Shown: in pieces, positions 25,700 to 52,956 of the stretch | Position numbering within the stretch: position 1 is the first letter of the stretch | Layout of the letters: each line of letters begins with the position of its first letter | Assembly (NCBI GenBank): GCA_018058095.1 | Contig: JAGPCO010000002.1 | Location: 1-64,000 of the forward strand | Source of the DNA: Kofleriaceae bacterium | GTDB taxonomy: Bacteria; Myxococcota_A; Polyangia; Haliangiales; Haliangiaceae | Length of the DNA stretch: 64,000 nt | Direction: 5' to 3' | The notes under the pieces: model-generated | Told to the model about the DNA's origin: nothing | What the model saw: only the letters and a program-made list of their open reading frames with translations | The model's database searches: none | Position numbers and translations under genes: made by a program

Positions 25700-26407
25700 A
25701 TGACGTGGCTGCTCCTGATCGGCGTGCTGGCCGGTGTCGTCACCACCCTGTCTGGCTTCGGCGGCGGCCTGCTCGCGCTGCTGGCGGTCTCGCTGTGGAT
25801 GGGCCCGCACGCGGCGCTGGCGGTCACCACGCCGGCGATGCTGGTCGGCAACCTCGACCGCTGGTGGCGCTACCGGGCCGACCTCGACCGCGTCACGCTG
25901 GGCCGCCTCAGCCTGGGCCTGGTCCCGGGCGCGCTGGTCGGAGGCCTGTTCGCGGTGCGGGTGCCGGCCGCGGTCCTGCACGGCGTCATGCTGGGCGTGG
26001 TCGCGCTGTCGCTGTGGCGGGCCTGGGGCGGGCGGGCGGTGCGGCTGCCGGCGGGGGCGCTGGTCGGATCGGGCCTGGTCATCGGCGTGCTGGTCGCCAC
26101 CGCCGGTGGCGCCGGGGTCCTGGCCGGGCCGCTCTTGCTCGCGCTCGGCCTGACCGGGCCGCGCTACCTGGCGACGATGTCGGCCGGCGCCGTCGTCATG
26201 CACGTGACCCGCATGGTCGGGTACGGCGCGACCGGCCTGCTCGCGCCGCGCTACCTGCCGGCCGCGGCGGTGCTGGCGCTGGCGGTGGTGGCGGGCAACC
26301 TGCTGGGCGACCGCCTGCGCGGCCGCCTCGGCCCCCGGGTGTTGCGGGCGGCCGAGCTGGCGGCGCCAGTGCTCGCGGCCGGTTTGGTCATCGCCGGTGC
26401 GGTGTGA
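25700..26407 (+). CDS. TSUP (TauE/SafE) family membrane transporter
   Basis: 235 residues with about seven or eight hydrophobic helices. The TSUP pattern LAGVVTTLSGFGGGLLALLAVSL near the N-terminus and the repeat later (VLVATAGGAGVLAGPLLLALGL) are the family's two half-domains. It is probably an anion or sulfonate exporter in the inner membrane. ATG at 25700 is chosen. A TTG at 25664 would add 12 residues and sits closer to the AT-rich promoter area. It is divergent from LysR, and its 3' end leads into a hairpin and a palindromic repeat. Confidence 0.82.
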   Translation: MTWLLLIGVLAGVVTTLSGFGGGLLALLAVSLWMGPHAALAVTTPAMLVGNLDRWWRYRADLDRVTLGRLSLGLVPGALVGGLFAVRVPAAVLHGVMLGVVALSLWRAWGGRAVRLPAGALVGSGLVIGVLVATAGGAGVLAGPLLLALGLTGPRYLATMSAGAVVMHVTRMVGYGATGLLAPRYLPAAAVLALAVVAGNLLGDRLRGRLGPRVLRAAELAAPVLAAGLVIAGAV

Positions 26408-26419
26408 GCGGAGGGCTTA

Positions 26420-26489
26420 GCAGGCTGCTGAAAAACCCGTGCCGGCGGCTCCGGCCGACGGGACGGGCTCCGTGTTTTCAGCAGGCTGC
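26420..26489. terminator. long stem-loop after the TSUP gene
   Basis: GCAGGCTGCTGAAAAAC (26420-26436) pairs with GTTTTCAGCAGGCTGC (26474-26489) apart from one base difference and a 1-nt bulge. A GC-rich loop of about 37 nt lies between. It starts 13 bases after the transporter stop codon, as expected for a terminator. The core GCAGGCTGCTG recurs after the SCO gene at 44033. Confidence 0.5.
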
Positions 26490-26502
26490 GAGATCGAAAA
26501 TG

Positions 26503-26535
26503 CCTAGCAGGATGCCTCTTCAGCATCCTGCTAGG
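26503..26535 (-). terminator. perfect 13-bp hairpin with T-run on minus strand
   Basis: CCTAGCAGGATGC (26503-26515) and GCATCCTGCTAGG (26523-26535) are perfect inverted repeats with a 7-nt loop. Read on the minus strand the stem is followed within 2 bases by TTTTC, so it resembles an intrinsic terminator for mgtE transcripts that pass the adjacent repeat. Confidence 0.52.
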
Positions 26536-26632
26536 GCCCGGGAAAGGGCAACTCAATCGTTCTCCCTCGTCGCGCCTTGCCCGCGGGGCGGCTCGTTCGC
26601 GAGCTCCGATCGAGTTGCCCCTTCCCGGGCCC
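26534..26632. repeat. palindromic repeat, copy 1 (99 bp)
   Basis: Both ends carry an imperfect 26-bp inverted repeat beginning GGGCCCGGGAA(A/G)GGGCAAC (26534-26559 and 26607-26632). The core includes GGCGGCTCGTTCGCGAGC. The right end touches the mgtE stop codon at 26633. A second copy, inverted and longer, is at 31822-31980. Both lie between convergent genes. No coding capacity is seen. Confidence 0.82.
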
Positions 26633-28201
26633 TTACAGCACCACGCCGACCAGCAGCAGGTTGGCGATGGTGAAGTAGATGAGCAGGCCAGTGACGTCGG
26701 ACAGGGTGGCGACGAACGGGGCCGAGGCCGAGGCCGGGTCGGCGCCGAAGCGGCGCAGCAGGAACGGCAACATGGCGCCGAGGAAGGTGCCGAACAGGAC
26801 CACGCCGACCAGCGACGCGCCGACGGTGAGGCCGATCAGCGCGTAGTGCGGCCCGTACGAGCTGCTCGCGGTCGGCCACAGCACCACCCGGAGCAGGCCG
26901 ATCACGCCCATGCCCACCCCGAGCGCCAGCCCGGTCAGCAGCTCGCGCCGGACCACGCGCCACCAGTCGGCCGCGCGCAGCTCACCCAGGGCCATGGCGC
27001 GGATGACCAGGGTCGAGGCCTGCGAGCCCGAGTTGCCGCCGGAGGAGATCACCAGCGGCATGAAGATCGACAGCACCGCGGCCTTCTCGATCTGGCCCTG
27101 GAAGTGGCCGATCACCGTGGCCGTCAGCATCTGCCCGAACAGCAGCACGGTCAGCCAGACCCCGCGTTTCCTCACCATGTCGCCCAGGCCCGACTGCAGG
27201 TACGGCTGCTCGAGGGCGGCCATACCGCCGAACTTCTGGATGTCCTCGGTCGCCTCTTCCTGCACCACGTCGACGATGTCGTCGACGGTGACGATGCCCT
27301 TCATGCGCCCGGCCTCGTCGACGACGGGGATGGCGTTGAGGTCGTGCTCGGCGAAGATGTGGGACAGGCTCTCCTGGTCGGTGCCCTCGCCGACCCGGAC
27401 CACCTCGGTCTCCATGATGTCGGCCACGGTCGTGGCCGGCGCCGCCGCGAACAGGTCGCGGAACGAGACCACGCCGAGCAGGTGCAGCTGCGGGTCGAGC
27501 ACGTAGGCGATGTAGATGGTCTCGAGCTTGGCCTGGGCCTGCCGGCGCAGGTAGCTGATGGCCTCGTCCACGGTCATCTGCGGCCGCAGGTGGGCGTAGC
27601 GGGTGTTCATCAGGCCGCCGGCCTCGTCCTCGGCGTAGGCCAGGAGGGCGGTGACCTCCTTGCGGGTCGGCTCGTCGAGCAGGGCCAGCAGGGGGCCGCG
27701 GGCGTCGTCGCCGGCCTCCTGGATCACGTCGGCCACGTCGTCGGGCTCGAGCAGGCGCATCCACTGCCGGCGCTGGCCACCCGGCCAGTGCAGGATCAGC
27801 TTGGCCTGGTCGGCCGCGGGCAGGCCGATGAAGAGGTCCTCGGCGTCCTCGCGCGGCAGGATGCGCAGGCCATCGGAGCGTTCGCCGAGGTCGAGCAGCG
27901 GCCAGGCGTCGCGCAGATCGTCGGCCGACAGCGGCTCGTCGGCGGTGGCCGGGCCGGGCGCCGGCTCGGCCAGGTCGCTGATCGACACCACCTGGGAGTC
28001 GTCGCCACGGCTGTCGGCGACCGCCTTGATCTCGGCCGCGACCTCACGCGCCTCGGCCGGGTCGAGGCGGTGCGCCTCGGCCGAACCGTCGAGGGCCCAG
28101 CCGTCGCCGCCGAGGTCGGCGTCGCGCCCGGCCACGCCGGCGCCATCCGCCCGTGGGGCGTCGGCGCGGTCGCTCGGCCGGCTGGGATCGTCGTCGACCA
28201 T
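26633..28201 (-). CDS. mgtE: MgtE-family Mg2+ transporter/channel
   Basis: 522 residues. An Asp/Ala-rich N-terminal extension (~85 residues) precedes the cytosolic N domain (PREDAEDLFIGLPAADQAKLI), two CBS domains (about 200-330; VVSFRDLFAAAP and MKGIVTVDDIVDVVQEE) and five C-terminal membrane helices. The selectivity segment PLVISSGGNSGSQASTLVIRA is intact. It imports Mg2+ (perhaps Co2+) across the inner membrane, gated by Mg2+ binding to the N/CBS domains. No M-box leader is visible in the 61 bases upstream. Its stop abuts the palindromic repeat. Confidence 0.96.
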   Translation of the reverse strand: MVDDDPSRPSDRADAPRADGAGVAGRDADLGGDGWALDGSAEAHRLDPAEAREVAAEIKAVADSRGDDSQVVSISDLAEPAPGPATADEPLSADDLRDAWPLLDLGERSDGLRILPREDAEDLFIGLPAADQAKLILHWPGGQRRQWMRLLEPDDVADVIQEAGDDARGPLLALLDEPTRKEVTALLAYAEDEAGGLMNTRYAHLRPQMTVDEAISYLRRQAQAKLETIYIAYVLDPQLHLLGVVSFRDLFAAAPATTVADIMETEVVRVGEGTDQESLSHIFAEHDLNAIPVVDEAGRMKGIVTVDDIVDVVQEEATEDIQKFGGMAALEQPYLQSGLGDMVRKRGVWLTVLLFGQMLTATVIGHFQGQIEKAAVLSIFMPLVISSGGNSGSQASTLVIRAMALGELRAADWWRVVRRELLTGLALGVGMGVIGLLRVVLWPTASSSYGPHYALIGLTVGASLVGVVLFGTFLGAMLPFLLRRFGADPASASAPFVATLSDVTGLLIYFTIANLLLVGVVL

Positions 28202-28262
28202 GCAGCGCCCACCCTGCCGAATCCGCGCCGGGATTTCCAGGCCCGAGGCGCCCGATCCCGGG

Positions 28263-28946
28263 CTACTCGGCCGCGGTCGGGGCGGGGGGCTGACGATTTC
28301 CGACCGCGACCTGGAGCGGCTGGCCTGGGCAACACGTGCGGGCGCCGTCGATGGCGCGGACCGCGTCGGCCCACTGCATGTCGGGGTCGAGCAGCGCGGT
28401 CACGTTGGTGAGCTGGTAGGCCTTCACGGCCTCGCGCAGGGTCTCGCGCACGAACGCGCGCGGGATGTGGCCGCCCGCGCCCTGCACGCAGTAGGCCTCG
28501 GCCGACTCCGGCGGGCGGATGCAGAACTGGCCGTTGCCGTAGGCCCGGAGCTCGATGCTCGGCTGGTCGCCGACCGGCTGCGACAGCACGAAGGTGCGGA
28601 CGTCATCGCGGTTGCCGACCAGCAGCTGGTACGGCACCGCGCCACCGTCGAGGCGGTGCAGCAGGGCCCGGACCCGGCGCCACGGCACCTGGCGCTCGAT
28701 GGCGACCCGGACCGGGCCGGTCGTGGGCAGCGCGAGCGCGGCGTCATCGCCGGCCTCGCGCACCACCAGGCGCGGCCCTGGCTGGGCCGGGCCGACCTGG
28801 TCGGCGTCGGCCAGCATCACGCCGCCCTCGTAGGCGACCAGGCGGTTCTCGCAGCCGGCGCCGAGCAGGAGCACGAGTGGCACCAGCGCGCGCGAGCCAC
28901 GCGCACGCCGCGGAGCTCGTCCGGATCGACCCAGGTTGCCGCGCAT
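28263..28946 (-). CDS. hypothetical lipoprotein
   Basis: 227 residues from the ATG at 28946 (another ATG at 28964). A basic N-terminus and hydrophobic stretch end in LLLGAGC, a lipobox. The mature part is a mixed alpha/beta domain with VPWRRVRALLHRLDGG and VPYQLLVGN, faintly like ExbD/TolR periplasmic domains, and a Cys pair near the end (ARTCCPGQP). No firm family. It is 41 bases downstream of the metallophosphoesterase gene on the same strand, the last of three envelope genes. Confidence 0.62.
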   Translation of the reverse strand: MRGNLGRSGRAPRRARGSRALVPLVLLLGAGCENRLVAYEGGVMLADADQVGPAQPGPRLVVREAGDDAALALPTTGPVRVAIERQVPWRRVRALLHRLDGGAVPYQLLVGNRDDVRTFVLSQPVGDQPSIELRAYGNGQFCIRPPESAEAYCVQGAGGHIPRAFVRETLREAVKAYQLTNVTALLDPDMQWADAVRAIDGARTCCPGQPLQVAVGNRQPPAPTAAE

Positions 28947-28987
28947 GAGCGCAGCTTGCCGCATGCGCCGCCGCCTGGCCAGGTCGA

Positions 28988-30079
28988 TCAATCGACCCGG
29001 GCCACGCCGACCTGATCGATGGCGCCGCGCGCGGGATCGAGGTCGACCACCAGGACGTGGCGGCCGATGCCGTCCCACCGCACCGGCACCGCCCCGCCGC
29101 CGCCGGAGATGTAGGCCGGGATGCCGGCGTTCTCGTAGGCCAGGAAGGTGTGGACGTGGCCGTACAGGGTGAGGTCGACGCCGCCCTCCGACAGCCGGGC
29201 CAGCAGCTGGTGGGCCTGGCGCCGGCTGCGGAACGACCCGGCCCGCACCCCGACCGGGTCGATCGGGGGGTAGTGGGTCAGGAACAGATGCAGGTCGTCG
29301 GCGCCGTCGGCCAGCCAGCCGTCGAGCCAGCCCTCCACGGTGGGGTCGAGGCCGCCGTCGCCGCTATCGGCGAACGTGAAGGCCGCGCCCTTGAAGCGAG
29401 CCTGGAAGCTGGCGCGCCCGAAGCGGCGGAAGTAGTTGTCGGCCTCGGTCCACAGCTCGTGGTTGCCGAGCGTCGTGTAGTAGGGCACCGGCAGGTACGC
29501 CAGCTGCGCCTCGAACAGGTCGTACTCCTCCTCGAGCGCGCGTTCGGTCAGGTCGCCCATCGACACCACGAAGCGCACGTCGGGTACGCCGGCGATGCGC
29601 GCGAACACCTCGTCGACGGTCGGCAACGCGGTCTGGATGTCGGCCATGGCCACCACCCGGAACCGGCCGACCTCGTCGGCGTCGGGCGCGGCGACCCGGA
29701 GGCGGTGAGCGCCGGCCGGGATGACCGCGCTGACCGTGCGATCGGTGACCCGCGCGCCGGTGGTGGTCGCGCCGAGCGCCACGGTCGGGCTGGTGATCTC
29801 GGCGTCGGGCACCGCGTTGTGGATGATCACCGTCAGCGAGGTGGTGACCTCGGCCCCGAGCGTGAGCTCGATCGTCGGCGCCCCGGCCCACACCTCGAGC
29901 ACGGCCGGGTCGAGCCGCCGCACGGCGCCGAGCCCGTCGTCGATGGCGACGGTCCAGCCCGCGGCGGCGGCCTGACCGACCGCGAGCTCGGCCGCCGCCC
30001 GATCGGCGCCGGGCTGGGTGCAGCCGGCGCCGGCCGCGATCACGACGGTCGTGGCGACGATCGCGCTTGTGCCCCTCAT
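28988..30079 (-). CDS. calcineurin-like phosphoesterase lipoprotein
   Basis: 363 residues from the ATG at 30079. Signal plus lipobox IAAGAGC (Cys at about 20) is followed by an N-terminal beta domain of about 120 residues (purple-acid-phosphatase-like Fn3 by appearance) and a metallophosphoesterase core. Metal ligands appear as MADIQ (first Asp), MGDLTER, LGNHELW, LFLTHYPP and LYGHVHTF. The first motif is DxQ, not DxH. It is probably an exported phosphatase or phosphodiesterase. It overlaps the upstream barrel-like gene by 4 bases (ATGA). Confidence 0.83.
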   Translation of the reverse strand: MRGTSAIVATTVVIAAGAGCTQPGADRAAAELAVGQAAAAGWTVAIDDGLGAVRRLDPAVLEVWAGAPTIELTLGAEVTTSLTVIIHNAVPDAEITSPTVALGATTTGARVTDRTVSAVIPAGAHRLRVAAPDADEVGRFRVVAMADIQTALPTVDEVFARIAGVPDVRFVVSMGDLTERALEEEYDLFEAQLAYLPVPYYTTLGNHELWTEADNYFRRFGRASFQARFKGAAFTFADSGDGGLDPTVEGWLDGWLADGADDLHLFLTHYPPIDPVGVRAGSFRSRRQAHQLLARLSEGGVDLTLYGHVHTFLAYENAGIPAYISGGGGAVPVRWDGIGRHVLVVDLDPARGAIDQVGVARVD

Positions 30080-31200
30080 CGGCGTCCTCCGCGCCAGCCC
30101 ACGGCCAGGCTGCCGAGCCAGGCCGAGCCGTACTCGACGCCGGCGCGCAGGGCCCAGCGCGAGCCCAGGCTGGCGCTGACACTGGCGCCGACGCTGCCGA
30201 AGAAGCCGTCGGCCGGCCCGGCCACCGCGCCACCGACGAGCTGATCGCGCCGGTGATCGTAGTGGAGCGCGAGCTCGTGGCCGGCGCCGCCCCCGGCCGG
30301 GCCCGACCAGGTCGCGCCGAGGGTGATGCGGCCGAGCGCGAGGTCGGTCACGTCCCAGCGCGGCCCGGTGGCGGCGGCGCCCTGGTAGCGCGCCAGCTCC
30401 AGCCCGGCGCCGAGCTCGAGCTCGGCGAACAGCCCGGCCAGCGTCGGCGCCAGCACGTGGCCGTCGGCCCGGCCGGCCACCGTGAGCTCGCCGGTCAGGG
30501 TGGTCACGGTCGGGCGGGCGAACCGATCGACGCCGCCATGGGCACGGACCTCGAGCCAGGTCGCGCCGCCGTCGCGTCGGTGGGTTCGCCAGGCCAGCGT
30601 GGTCCGGCTGCGCTGGGTGTCGCCGTCGACGGCGACCAGGGCGCCGGTCTCGACCCGGCCGCGCCCGCGCGCCAGCGCAGCGCCGAGCGTGGTGAAGGTG
30701 TGGCTGTCGGCCAGCACCGGGTCGGTCAGCACGGCGGCGCCGACCTCGAGCTGCCAGGCCGGCTCGGACGGCGCCCGCCAGGTCGCCGGCGCCGCCCCGG
30801 TCGCGACCCACAGATCACCGGCCCACGCCGCCAGCGTGGCGCCGGCGCCACCGACCGCGAGCGGGATGCCGATCCAGGTGACCCGCTCGGAGCCGCGCAG
30901 GACCCCGACCGGGACCCCGCCGACCACCAGCGCGCCCAGCCCGGCGACCGACAGCCAGAACAGGCGCCGGCTGGCCACGGGGGCGCCGGCCAGCGCCGCG
31001 CCCAGGCCACGCGGCCACGGCCCTGGCACGGCGGCGACGGCGATCGCGGCCGGGCGGCGCTGCGGCGGGGGCGGGGCCGCGGTCGGGTGCCAGCTCCACG
31101 GCGACGGCACGGCCTGGGCTGGTGGCTCCTCGGCCCTGGCCGGGGCGGCGACGATCGCCGCTGTGGCCACGAGGGCGAGGGTGGACAGCGAGCGCCGCAC
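30076..31200 (-). CDS. exported beta-rich envelope protein
   Basis: 374 residues from a GTG at 31200, with TAGGGT 9 bases upstream. The signal peptide (LSTLALVATAAIVAAPARA) and a Pro-rich segment are followed by two hydrophobic helices (about 80-130: LFWLSVAGLGALVVGGVPVGVL) and about 220 residues of alternating amphipathic strands ending AVGWRGGRR. It is either an outer-membrane barrel or a membrane-anchored periplasmic protein. It is first of a three-gene unit with the phosphoesterase and a lipoprotein. Confidence 0.62.
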   Translation of the reverse strand: MRRSLSTLALVATAAIVAAPARAEEPPAQAVPSPWSWHPTAAPPPPQRRPAAIAVAAVPGPWPRGLGAALAGAPVASRRLFWLSVAGLGALVVGGVPVGVLRGSERVTWIGIPLAVGGAGATLAAWAGDLWVATGAAPATWRAPSEPAWQLEVGAAVLTDPVLADSHTFTTLGAALARGRGRVETGALVAVDGDTQRSRTTLAWRTHRRDGGATWLEVRAHGGVDRFARPTVTTLTGELTVAGRADGHVLAPTLAGLFAELELGAGLELARYQGAAATGPRWDVTDLALGRITLGATWSGPAGGGAGHELALHYDHRRDQLVGGAVAGPADGFFGSVGASVSASLGSRWALRAGVEYGSAWLGSLAVGWRGGRR

Positions 31201-31209
31201 GAGCCGGGG

Positions 31210-31215
31210 ACCCTA
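31210..31215 (-). promoter_or_regulatory. -10-like TAGGGT
   Basis: Minus-strand TAGGGT lies 9 bases before the GTG at 31200, in the 98-bp divergent spacer shared with the lipoprotein at 31299. Confidence 0.4.
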
Positions 31216-31286
31216 GCAGGTCGCCCCCGGCGGTGGCTGGCCCGGGCGGTTTCGATCGCCTGCTGGCGAGCCCGTCGGCTTCGGGC

Positions 31287-31292
31287 TACCGT
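31287..31292 (+). promoter_or_regulatory. -10-like TACCGT
   Basis: TACCGT lies 6 bases before the ATG at 31299. Identical TACCGT hexamers stand 5-6 bases before the starts at 44146, 45953 and 53965. Confidence 0.48.
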
Positions 31293-31298
31293 GACCCC

Positions 31299-31814
31299 AT
31301 GGCGACGTGGCGGATGCTGACGGCGGTGGTCCTGGCGGCCGGCCTCGGCTGTGCCAAGGCCAGCGACGACGCCGCGGCCCGGCGAACACCCGCGGTGCCG
31401 CCGCCCGGGGAGGTCGCCATCCCGCGCACGCTGCGCCTGCCGGTCAGCATCGACGGCCGCGACGCCGGCGTGATCGACGCCGAGCGGCTCGGCGCGGTCC
31501 CGCCGGCGTTCGCCGACGAGGAGCGCCGGGCCTGGAAGGTCGCCCAGGTCATCCCCGAGGCGGCCGCGGCCGACGCCGTGGTCGAGGCGCGCAGCGCCAG
31601 CGGCGTGTCGATGCGGATGGACCGCCCGCCCGACGGGCGCCACCTCGAGCCCGTGCTGTTCCTGACCCGCCGCGGCGACGTGGTGGTGTCCCTGGTCGAT
31701 CCGACCGACCCGTTCCCCGACTACCACGGCCAGGGCGGCCGGCTGCGCCGGCAGGGTGACCCGCTGCCGCGCCTGGCCCAGGTCACCGCGCTGGCCATCG
31801 TCCGCGCGCGCTGA
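31299..31814 (+). CDS. hypothetical lipoprotein
   Basis: 171 residues. The signal with lipobox (VVLAAGLGC, Cys at about 18) is followed by a short Ala/Pro linker and a compact domain with IDGRDAGVIDAERLGAV and VLFLTRRGDVVVSLVD. No family recognised. TACCGT 6 bases upstream supports the ATG at 31299. It is convergent with the ATP-grasp operon, and the second palindromic repeat fills the space between. Confidence 0.6.
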   Translation: MATWRMLTAVVLAAGLGCAKASDDAAARRTPAVPPPGEVAIPRTLRLPVSIDGRDAGVIDAERLGAVPPAFADEERRAWKVAQVIPEAAAADAVVEARSASGVSMRMDRPPDGRHLEPVLFLTRRGDVVVSLVDPTDPFPDYHGQGGRLRRQGDPLPRLAQVTALAIVRAR

Positions 31815-31821
31815 GCCCTCA

Positions 31822-31980
31822 GGGCCCGGGAAGGGGCAACTCGATCGGAGCTCGCGAACGAGCCGCCCCGCGGGCAAGGCGCGACGAGGGAGCATACCCG
31901 TCGGTACGTGACCGAGGAGCAACGCAGCCCCCGGGGATGGATCGTTCGCGAGAGCGATTGAGTTGCCCCTTCCCGGGCCC
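31822..31980. repeat. palindromic repeat, copy 2 (159 bp)
   Basis: Same 26-bp terminal inverted repeats as the copy at 26534 (31822-31847 and 31955-31980; copy 2 ends differ at one position). The element is in the opposite orientation and carries about 60 extra bases between the GGGAG of the core and the right-hand repeat. Its right end touches the stop codon of the ATP-grasp gene at 31981. It contains its own short palindromes (TCGTTCGCGAGAGCGA). Non-coding. Confidence 0.82.
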
Positions 31981-33030
31981 TCAGTCCTCGAGCCAGGCCG
32001 CGACCGGCTCGTCGGTGCCGGGCGCCACCAGGACGAGGGCGCCGTCGGGCGCGGCCGGGCCGACCCGCAGGTGGGCCCGTCCGAGCCGCCGCGCCAGCGC
32101 CCACGCCACCGTGCCGAAGGTCAGGCGCGGGTTGATCTCGACCAGCGGCAGCATCACCACGGCGCCGGTGGGGTCGCGATGGAGCAGGGCGTCGAGGCCG
32201 AACGGGCCGAGGTGGCCGTCGGCGGCGAGCGCGGCGCCGACCTCGGCCGCCACCGCCACCAGCGCGGCGCGGGCGGCCGTGGGGAGCCCATCGTCGTCGG
32301 TGTCGACGCCGCGGAAGCCGCCGCGCTCGTCGCACCACAGCCGGTGCGGCGGCATCAGCTCGACCCGGCCGTCGGCGGCGATGGCGCCGACGATGCCGGC
32401 GTCGCCGACGCGATCGAGCCACGGCTCGACCACCAGCGCACGCTGGCCGGCCAGGAGGCGGGTCACGCGGGCGGCCAGCTCGCCGTCGACGACGGGGCCG
32501 GTGCCGTGGACGCGGTCGCGCCCGGCCGCGGTCCACGGCGCCTTGCCGACCCAGCGGCCGCCGGGGCCGAGCGCGCCGGGCCTGGCCAGGTGCGCGCGCA
32601 GACCGGCGAGGTCGGTCACCACGTCGCGGCCGGGCAGGGCGACGCCGAGCCGCTCGGCCAGGGCCGCGGCCCAGCGACGATCACCGAGCTGGCGCGCCCG
32701 CGCGCGCGCCGGCGCCAGCGCGTAGGCCGGGCCGAGCAGGCACGGGACCCCGGCGGTCACGGCGCGATCGTCGAGCGCGCCCCACACCAGCGCCGGCCGG
32801 CCGGTCGGCGCGCTGGACGGCTCGATGGTGAGCGCCGGCAGCCCGGGCACCGGCGGGATCCGGGCCGGCTCGACCGCGGCGTCGGTGAACACGGCACACG
32901 CCGGCGCGTCGACCAGCGCCCGCATCAGCGTGGCCAGCGCCGCGGCCCGGCGCCGCACCGGCGCCGGCAGCGGGCCGAGGCCGGCCCAGGCCCGCTCGCA
33001 GCCGAGGTTCCCCACACACGCGATCGTCAT
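31981..33030 (-). CDS. ATP-grasp-like ligase
   Basis: 349 residues from the ATG at 33030. The fold cues are a central Lys segment (GRWVGKAPWTAAGRDRVHG), a hinge ALVVEPWLDRVGD, LWCDERGGFRGVD and the Mg-binding VEINPRLTFGTVAWAL near the end, all typical of ATP-grasp carboxylate-amine or -thiol ligases. It resembles neither D-Ala ligase nor RimK closely. It is 16 bases downstream of the DUF455 ferritin-like gene and last in an operon with two MYXO-CTERM proteins. The substrate may be a small acid or peptide; unknown. Confidence 0.75.
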   Translation of the reverse strand: MTIACVGNLGCERAWAGLGPLPAPVRRRAAALATLMRALVDAPACAVFTDAAVEPARIPPVPGLPALTIEPSSAPTGRPALVWGALDDRAVTAGVPCLLGPAYALAPARARARQLGDRRWAAALAERLGVALPGRDVVTDLAGLRAHLARPGALGPGGRWVGKAPWTAAGRDRVHGTGPVVDGELAARVTRLLAGQRALVVEPWLDRVGDAGIVGAIAADGRVELMPPHRLWCDERGGFRGVDTDDDGLPTAARAALVAVAAEVGAALAADGHLGPFGLDALLHRDPTGAVVMLPLVEINPRLTFGTVAWALARRLGRAHLRVGPAAPDGALVLVAPGTDEPVAAWLED

Positions 33031-51102: not shown

Positions 51103-52956
51103 CTACTCGAGCGCTTGCCCGAACCGGGCCTGGTAGTCGATCCGGAGCTGGGCCAGCTCGGCGTCGCGCTGGCCACGCGCCAGCGCCTTGCCGAGCGCGC
51201 GCCAGGCCTGACCCAGATCGGGGTCGCTGGCGATGGCGCCGCGCAGGTGGGCCAGCCCGGGGTCGAGCTTGGCGCCGCCGGTGACGCCGCGCAGGGCGAT
51301 GATGCCGAGCAGGTAACGCGGCCACGACGCGTCGGGGTAGATGGCCAGCGCGCGCTCGCACTCGGCCTTGGCCTGGGCGATGCGGTTCTTGCGCAGCTCG
51401 AGGTCACATAGCGCGCCGCCCGGGCCGGCCGCCTTGGGCCAGCGCTTGCGCGCGGCGGCGATGGCCTTGGCCGCCTCGGCCAGCTTGTCCTTGTAGATGA
51501 GCTCGAGCGCGCCGCGCACCGCGGCCACCAGCTCGCCCTCGTCGGCCGGCGCCACCGCGCCCGGGGTCACGCCGTAACGCACGCGCTGGGTGCGCGCGGT
51601 CAGGGCGATGGGGTGATCGGCGCGGCCGGTGTTGATGGCCGCGCGCTCGGCCAGGCTGAGCGCGCCGAGCTGGGCGTAGGCGTCGGCCAGCGCGGCCCAG
51701 CCGCGCGGCGGGTCGGCGCTGGCGACCACCTTGGGCTCGGCCGCGGCCAGCTCGGCCAGCGCGCCGGCCTTGTCCTGGTGGGCGGCCAGCGCGCCGGCCA
51801 GGAGCAGGTGCGGTCGGGCGTCGCCGCCGGCGAGCGCGGTGACCCGGCGGCACCGCTGCAGCGCGGTGTCGGGCAGCGCGGCGTCGGCCGGCGCCGCGCG
51901 CAGCGCGAGCTCGCAGTCGAGCAGGCGCAGGCTGGCCTGGGCCGGGTAGGCGGCGAGCAGCGGCTCGAGCTCGGCCGCGGCCTCGGCCAGCTTGCCGCCG
52001 CGGGCCAGGGCCTGGGCGCGCTGGAACTGGTCGTAGATCTCCGTCGGCACGTCGCTGGCCGCCTTGCCGGCGCGAGCGGCGTCGATGATCGCCCGCAGCT
52101 GGATCACCACGTCGTCGTGATCGCGCTCGACCCAGCCGCCCCAGGCCGAGGCCTCGATCGATCCGAGCATGGCGCTGGCCAGCTCGGCCCCGGCGGCGTC
52201 GGCGCTGCGCACGCGCGCGTCGGCGCCGAGCTGGACCACGGCGCGGTTGCGGTCGGACAGGCCGGCCTGGCTCGGCGCGTACGCCGTCGCCATCAGCCAC
52301 GCCGGGTCGGTCTCGGTGATGGCGCCGAGCGAGCGCAGGAGGTGGTGCAGCAGGACCACGGCCTGCTTGTGTCGCCGGTGTGCGCCCAGGACCTCGCCCC
52401 GCGCCGCCGGCTTCACGCCGGCGACCCGCGCCGCCAGCACCTCGGTCTCGACGGCGTCGCCCCACGCTCGCACCACCACGTGTTTACCCAGCAGCGCGCT
52501 CTCGCCGAGCGCGACCTGGGCCGCGGTCGGCTTGTCGGGGCCGTCGACCACGCCGATGACCCAGGCCGCGCCGGCGCCAGGGTCGGTCGCGGCCAGCTCG
52601 GCGCGAGCGCCGCCGAGGTCGCCGCGCCGGTCCCAGTCCTTGATCTCGGTCACCTCCAGCTGGATCCCGACCAGCTGGGCCAGGAACTGGCTGGCGTAGT
52701 CGACCTCGTCGACGATGCGCTCGCGCCAGCCGGTGCGGGCCCGCACCTCGGGCGCGGCCCACACCCGCACCGTCAGCGGGCGCGGCTCACCGGCACGTGG
52801 CTCCGGCACCTCGAGGGTGACCGGCACCGCCGCCCCGATCTCGTCGCGCTCGGTCTCCGTGCTGGTGGAGAGCGACGGCCCGCAGCCCGGCCCGGCCAGC
52901 GCGGCGATCAGCAGGGCGAGGCGAGCGGGCCACGAGCGGAGCCGGGAGGTGCACAC
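51103..52956 (-). CDS. lipoprotein with degenerate metzincin-like domain and TPRs
   Basis: 617 residues from a GTG at 52956. Signal with lipobox LAGPGC. The N-terminal ~230 residues follow a metzincin-like plan (VRVWAAPEVRARTGWRERIV, LVGIQLEVTEIKDW), but the helix that should hold HExxH reads LLHHLLRSLGA, that is His204-His205-Leu-Leu-Arg208, so the catalytic Glu and second His are gone. About 300-600 are TPR-like repeats (KLAEAAAELEPLLAAYP; RALAIYPDASWPRYLLGIIAL). Probably a non-enzymatic envelope scaffold. Separated from the FHA-kinase genes by a large hairpin. Confidence 0.75.
   Translation of the reverse strand: MCTSRLRSWPARLALLIAALAGPGCGPSLSTSTETERDEIGAAVPVTLEVPEPRAGEPRPLTVRVWAAPEVRARTGWRERIVDEVDYASQFLAQLVGIQLEVTEIKDWDRRGDLGGARAELAATDPGAGAAWVIGVVDGPDKPTAAQVALGESALLGKHVVVRAWGDAVETEVLAARVAGVKPAARGEVLGAHRRHKQAVVLLHHLLRSLGAITETDPAWLMATAYAPSQAGLSDRNRAVVQLGADARVRSADAAGAELASAMLGSIEASAWGGWVERDHDDVVIQLRAIIDAARAGKAASDVPTEIYDQFQRAQALARGGKLAEAAAELEPLLAAYPAQASLRLLDCELALRAAPADAALPDTALQRCRRVTALAGGDARPHLLLAGALAAHQDKAGALAELAAAEPKVVASADPPRGWAALADAYAQLGALSLAERAAINTGRADHPIALTARTQRVRYGVTPGAVAPADEGELVAAVRGALELIYKDKLAEAAKAIAAARKRWPKAAGPGGALCDLELRKNRIAQAKAECERALAIYPDASWPRYLLGIIALRGVTGGAKLDPGLAHLRGAIASDPDLGQAWRALGKALARGQRDAELAQLRIDYQARFGQALE

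Follow-up and report, generated by a model that had tools for sequence, protein, structure and literature searches.

Two Copies of a Palindromic Element between Convergent Genes

The window analyzed here is a 64,000-nt stretch (positions 1 to 64,000, forward strand) of contig JAGPCO010000002.1 from a Kofleriaceae bacterium (GCA_018058095.1). The host genome, a 7.57 Mb draft in 227 contigs, is designated G000; other G-numbers denote genomes, and L- and C-numbers denote loci and contigs. The window contains two copies of a palindromic element, named E1, whose plus strand is defined as the strand carrying GA mismatches in its core. A first-pass annotation had described the copies as lying in opposite orientation between convergent genes, each stopping one base before the stop codon of a minus-strand gene, and all of this was confirmed by the gene calls and flanks (Table 1). 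The 21-bp end GGGCCCGGGAAGGGGCAACTC occurs four times in the window at up to 3 mismatches and in none of 100 shuffles. The same annotation took copy 2 to have about 60 extra core bases. The relation is the reverse: about 20 full-length copies like copy 2 are present in the genome, which makes copy 2 the standard form and copy 1 a derivative with a 60-bp deletion. The whole element forms one hairpin, with a folding energy of −120 kcal/mol versus −69 in shuffles (z = −12.4). As argued below, E1 is quite probably a non-autonomous fold-back mobile element of a widespread superfamily resembling the enterobacterial repetitive intergenic consensus (ERIC), tolerated at stop codons and −10 boxes.

A blastn search of the host genome located E1 at about 44 places, about 20 of which retain both ends, and related genomes also carry matches. 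The first-pass description of a palindromic, repetitive mobile element located exactly at stop codons, resembling a miniature inverted-repeat transposable element (MITE), is thereby supported; neither outcome that was to speak against it, a lack of additional copies or copies placed without regard to gene ends, was observed. By their ends, the E1 copies fall into three sequence subfamilies (GGGCCCGGGAAGGGG, GGGGCCGGGAACGGG, and GGGCCC[CG]CGAA). E1 is regarded as an inserted element because it is bordered by direct repeats of 3 bp with the pattern T-N-A. These are exact, N being identical left and right, in 11 of the 20 two-ended copies (TAA/TAA in eight, TCA/TCA in two, and TTA/TTA in one; shuffle p = 0.002). 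Copy 1 and the copy on C31 are probably also TTA/TTA, if a second repeat, E2, is read as a later insertion into the TA of their left TTA.

Empty sites are consistent with this reading. In the relative G007, the convergent pair orthologous to the copy-2 neighbors is separated by TGA-5nt-TCA, in which TCA occurs once and E1 is absent; the window reads TGA-4nt-TCA-E1-TCA. Likewise, the MgtE orthologues of relatives stop at the codon homologous to the copy-1 boundary, and the element is absent there. Since TCA/TCA and TTA/TTA repeats occur, we favor a 3-bp (TNA) over a 2-bp duplication for the window family, while TA fits the GTG-ended branches.

Table 1. Positions of E1, E2, and neighboring features in the window.
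Feature	Positions	Strand	Remarks
E1 copy 2	31822–31980	+	Full length, 159 bp, GGGCCC...GGGCCC; full-length copies 97–99% identical on four other contigs
Folded core of E1 copy 2 (model positions 1–101)	31852–31952	+	R1, 116.8 bits; R2, 103.1 bits, E = 2.4e-20
Left target-site duplication TCA, E1 copy 2	31819–31821		Flank sequence
Right target-site duplication TCA, E1 copy 2	31981–31983		Stop TGA of minus-strand gene 31981–33030
E1 copy 1	26534–26632	−	Inverted; 60 bp lost internally at a GAG microhomology, with little of the conserved core remaining
Target-site duplication TTA, E1 copy 1	26633–26635		Stop TAA of mgtE
Probable second TTA repeat of E1 copy 1	26417–26419		Split off later by E2 insertion at its TA
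E2	26420–26531	+	Second high-copy palindromic repeat, unrelated to E1, nested beside E1 copy 1
TauE-like gene	25700–26407	+	Neighbor of E1 copy 1
mgtE	26633–28201	−	Neighbor of E1 copy 1
Gene	31233–31814	+	Neighbor of E1 copy 2; no Pfam match
Gene	31981–33030	−	Neighbor of E1 copy 2; no Pfam match
Weak R2 match	51149–51214	−	21 bits, E = 0.03; probably a chance match in 80% GC sequence

In the host genome, the same core also occurs with terminal repeats of a second type (..GGAGCACTA; L116 at C67:76574, L125, and L128), and an E1 fragment is amplified in tandem units of 67–73 bp at L117:5070–5429 (C210). No relevant match of E1 ends or whole elements was found in plasmids or phages, and an Rfam scan returned only a chance match (mir-3180, 26.9 bits, where the gathering score is 99).

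Insertion at Stop Codons and Predicted −10 Boxes

The trinucleotide flanking E1 is the stop codon of the neighboring gene in 21 of 41 copies, and the stop survives on the gene side because the target trinucleotide is duplicated on insertion. Background rates were taken from 534 kb of loci from the host genome, in which stops make up 8% of non-coding TAA/TTA. Among TAA-type flanks, stops and non-stops number 16 and 17 (16/33), against 12:137 in the background (p = 3e-7), and TAA rarely serves as a stop in the host (outside E1 sites, 12 of about 450). The pattern is repeated in G019, which belongs to another genus of the same family (about 7 of 17 copies at stop codons), and a stop-codon association is also suggested in TA-flanked relatives such as Cupriavidus.

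The first-pass claim that the element sits exactly at convergent stops stands in part. Convergent gaps hold 16 of the 38 classifiable copies compared with 20% of all gaps, an approximately 2-fold enrichment (p = 0.002), but this is not a rule, given that only the 21 copies above have a stop boundary and about 10 lie upstream of gene starts. The convergent-stop pattern is one consequence of a wider insertion rule. In 11 copies, the motif TAA[GC][GC]T (TAANNT) adjoins the right end and is soon followed by a gene start, whereas it is found at the right end of none of the seven copies without a close gene start. In all 11 such copies, TTGAGT inside the element lies exactly 17 bp upstream of the flanking TAANNT, compared with 8 of 21 others. 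Owing to this spacing, the right end of E1 and its flank are read as a predicted −35/−10 promoter pair.

A Folded Core Conserved across Phyla

The ends of E1 differ among its relatives, while the interior aligns readily. In an alignment of 20 cores with a hand-written structure (A1), 90.9% of the pairs are standard and 17 of the 34 pairs have changed on both sides; the covariation score is 0.291, while shuffles give 0.104 and sliding the structure gives no more than 0.066. The center of the core is an apical hairpin beneath a stack of 5′-GA/5′-GA tandem mismatches, spaced by one or two pairs. One pair between the tandem mismatches reads C-G in 10 of the cores and G-C in the other 10. Since one strand has G-A at the mismatches and its complement T-C, conservation of the core is strand-specific.

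A covariance model of the core (R1) matched 58 of 235 genomes of the phylum. A degenerate core pattern, for which about two chance matches are expected in the whole collection by our own calculation, pointed further afield: among the matches listed, loci were found in Acidobacteriota, alpha-, beta-, and gammaproteobacteria, Elusimicrobiota, Actinomycetota, Planctomycetota, Verrucomicrobiota, and one metagenome-assembled genome (MAG) of Bacteroidota. Those sampled loci that were confirmed by the model score 35–96 bits at the pattern sites. Contamination of MAGs may affect single loci; isolates among the core-bearing loci include Cupriavidus, Massilia, Lysobacter, Novosphingobium, Pseudomonas protegens, and Sorangium. 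In a larger alignment of 74 sequences (A2), which was fitted to the model and drew more than half of its sources from the degenerate pattern, 582 double-change cells were counted versus 161 ± 10 in shuffles. Model R2, built from A2, did not match copy 1 of the window.

The target-to-target length is 159–160 bp in most relatives despite unrelated ends. One exception is a 176–178 bp variant in which both core arms carry a matching extension of about 10 nt (L140, L142, L146, L159, and L161). Double-core elements, in which two superfamily cores lie inverted within one larger palindrome, are another (L392, L394 in Pseudomonas protegens, L197, and L226).

Relation to ERIC

ERIC repeats, also called IRU or RU-1, have been known since 1990–91 and are widely used in strain typing; to our knowledge, neither their origin nor the enzyme that mobilizes them is known. 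Like E1, they are intergenic and non-coding, consist of a single long hairpin, and share the core motif GGCAAGGC.GCGA ... GGAGC.TA ... TA.GTGAC ... GAGC..ACGCAGCC. The comparison was made with covariance models calibrated in shortened form. R2 was built without any enterobacterial sequence, and a third model, R3, was built from nine ERIC copies only. The narrow model R1 gave 8.4 bits on Escherichia coli ERIC, which is not significant. R2 gave 24.8 bits on ERIC of Klebsiella aerogenes (E = 0.001), 24.1 on Citrobacter (E = 0.0015), and 19.7 on K. pneumoniae (E = 0.014), and in all eight ERIC loci its best or near-best match was ERIC itself, at full length and on the same strand. In an unguided search of a 425-kb Citrobacter record, the sole R2 candidate was an ERIC-like element; in a 770-kb K. 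aerogenes record, a fast first look did not recover the known ERIC, and its single weak candidate was unrelated.

In the opposite direction, R3 was run on 402 kb of E1-type loci. Of its 18 best matches, 16 coincided with the elements, each of them on the GA strand, compared with 0.2 expected by chance (binomial 2.5e-30). As a control, 29 loci containing the unrelated palindrome E2 gave no R3 match and no R2 match on E2; therefore, hairpin shape alone is not the cause of the ERIC/E1 matches. In core sequence and fold, E1 thus groups with ERIC/IRU, as the reciprocal, strand-specific matches of R2 and R3 indicate, and we conclude from these comparisons of sequence that E1 elements and ERIC share the core by descent, or else by very tight convergence. 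No description of this link was found in the open-access literature searched by topic and printed sequence.

Nevertheless, E1 is not filed as an ERIC, because length, ends, and host range differ. ERIC termini are TATAC..GTATA with a TA duplication, and these terminal repeats are unrelated in sequence to those of E1; the window family is flanked by TNA, although TA-flanked branches exist in other phyla. ERIC is found in Enterobacterales and Vibrio, whereas the E1-type core occurs in many phyla.

Proposed Mode of Insertion and Alternative Explanations

The observations support insertion of E1 at the DNA level into short T-N-A targets, mostly TAA/TTA, which are duplicated with a 3-bp stagger. In the TA-flanked branches the stagger is 2 bp, and the stop is regenerated by the first base of the element, a G following the TA. 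In this GC-rich host, T-N-A sites are found in stop codons and −10 boxes, where insertion is probably tolerated. At stop codons, the duplicated trinucleotide (or, in TA-targeting relatives, the element-completed one) preserves the stop; at −10 sites, the TTGAGT of the element lies 17 bp away, at the expected −35 position. Over the superfamily, the terminal repeats change freely, while the length of about 159 bp and the strand-specific core, i.e., the hairpin with its tandem G-A mismatches, are retained. ERIC/IRU would represent a shorter (127-bp), divergent branch. E1 itself is presumably moved by an enzyme acting in trans. That the ends are free while the length is fixed and the core strand-specific suggests recognition of the folded strand by some factor, and we infer that the core is recognized in a folded, single-stranded form (single-stranded DNA or a cruciform, or RNA), most likely during mobilization.

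Several observations weigh against the reading of E1 as a mobile, ERIC-related element. Nine of the 20 two-ended copies have no exact 3-bp repeat, and the site statistics rest on genes called by a simple codon-usage script. The test of stop-codon reading phase in 20 TA-flanked elements is suggestive only (p = 0.065). On the side of ERIC, R2 scores of 9.7–13.1 bits on five other copies (E. coli, Vibrio, and Proteus) are individually not significant, and ERIC is 127 bp long with TA ends as opposed to 159–160 bp with TNA in the E1 family. Finally, no autonomous partner was found: E1 end-pairs never lie kilobases apart in G000, the assembly of which is fragmented, or in G019, and the host genome has only three DDE_Tnp_1 (PF01609) remnants. 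A search for a cognate insertion sequence (IS) gave no DDE_3 (PF13358) match. Unpaired E1 ends in G019 were considered as possible IS ends and rejected, as they are truncated copies at stop codons.

That E1 is an ordinary MITE is a serious possibility, although we hold it short of probable. It would then be an IS5-like IS that has a TNA/TA target and has lost internal sequence; a DDE transposase reading only the terminal repeats would move it, and its core would be passive. TNA targets occur in IS5 subgroups. E1 indeed has the terminal inverted repeats, target-site duplication, and lack of an open reading frame expected of a MITE of a known IS, and its 2–3 bp TNA/TA duplications, size, and non-autonomous nature recall IS5-family and other bacterial MITEs such as Correia/NEMIS and RUP (about 100–200 bp). 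In contrast to these, no partner IS sharing its ends was found in G000 or G019. Moreover, the strand-specific folded core and the length of about 159 bp persist across phyla while the ends differ completely, and an end-recognizing transposase would need neither. Integron attC sites offer an analogy only: they are imperfect hairpins that retain their structure and unpaired bases despite sequence drift, but E1 has no integrase or cassette array and does have a target duplication.

It is unlikely that E1 is instead a regulatory hairpin serving the host, such as a 3′-UTR RNA stabilizer, an RNase target, or a terminator, that has spread through its usefulness at gene ends. The stop-codon association would agree with such a role, and ERIC has been reviewed as altering mRNA stability in Yersinia (PMC2229807). 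However, the orientation of E1 relative to the stop-codon gene is mixed (14:7 in G000 and about 3:4 in G019), and a role in mobilization is for this reason favored over a 3′-UTR function. The copies upstream of gene starts are not at 3′ ends either. The bidirectional terminator proposed in the first-pass annotation was not borne out, as the hairpin lacks a T-run and a terminator scan found nothing in E1, both of its matches being in E2.

Movement of E1 as a REP/REPIN-type element by a RAYT (Y1 HUH) transposase, also suggested at first, is highly improbable: E1 resembles REP, BIME, and REPIN sequences in being an extragenic palindrome of high copy number, and 34 Y1_Tnp genes are present in G000, but REP/REPIN carry a GTAG/CGTC tag beside a 20–40 bp palindrome, while E1 is 159 bp long, has 3-bp target duplications, ends in (T-N-A)GGGCCC...GGGCCC with no tag, and is directly adjoined only by a different repeat, E2, and the reading is largely refuted by the lack of any Y1_Tnp match in G019 and G051, each with at least 15 matches to the element.

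The adjoining repeat E2 has ends GCAGGCTGCTGAAAAA...CAGCATCCTGC flanked by TA on both sides, at CTAG-like targets. More than 40 copies (203 first-look candidates) occur in the host genome, TA-flanked elsewhere as well, and three E1 copies carry a nested E2 in their flank. The Y1_Tnp genes (for example, L365:3789–4610 and L366:2555–3355) are IS200/RAYT-like, encode about 272 aa, and lie within units of about 1.2–1.4 kb that are 77–88% identical. They are a possible partner of E2, although in four units examined the ends carried no E2.

Implications

The pattern of stop codons and −10 boxes illustrates how insertion of a short element can spare the neighboring genes in a GC-rich genome densely packed with genes. 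With ERIC placed in the same superfamily, an alignment and a covariance model become available, and near-identical recent copies and candidate partner genes may be sought in a list of genomes that includes, for example, G019, Cupriavidus, and Pseudomonas protegens. More tentatively, ERIC and the E1 elements might form one bacteria-wide superfamily moved by an enzyme that recognizes the folded, strand-specific G-A-mismatch core rather than the terminal repeats, an idea that we put forward with some doubt. If true, such an enzyme would explain the drifting ends, the fixed length, and the conserved core, as well as why the transposase of ERIC has been missed for so long.

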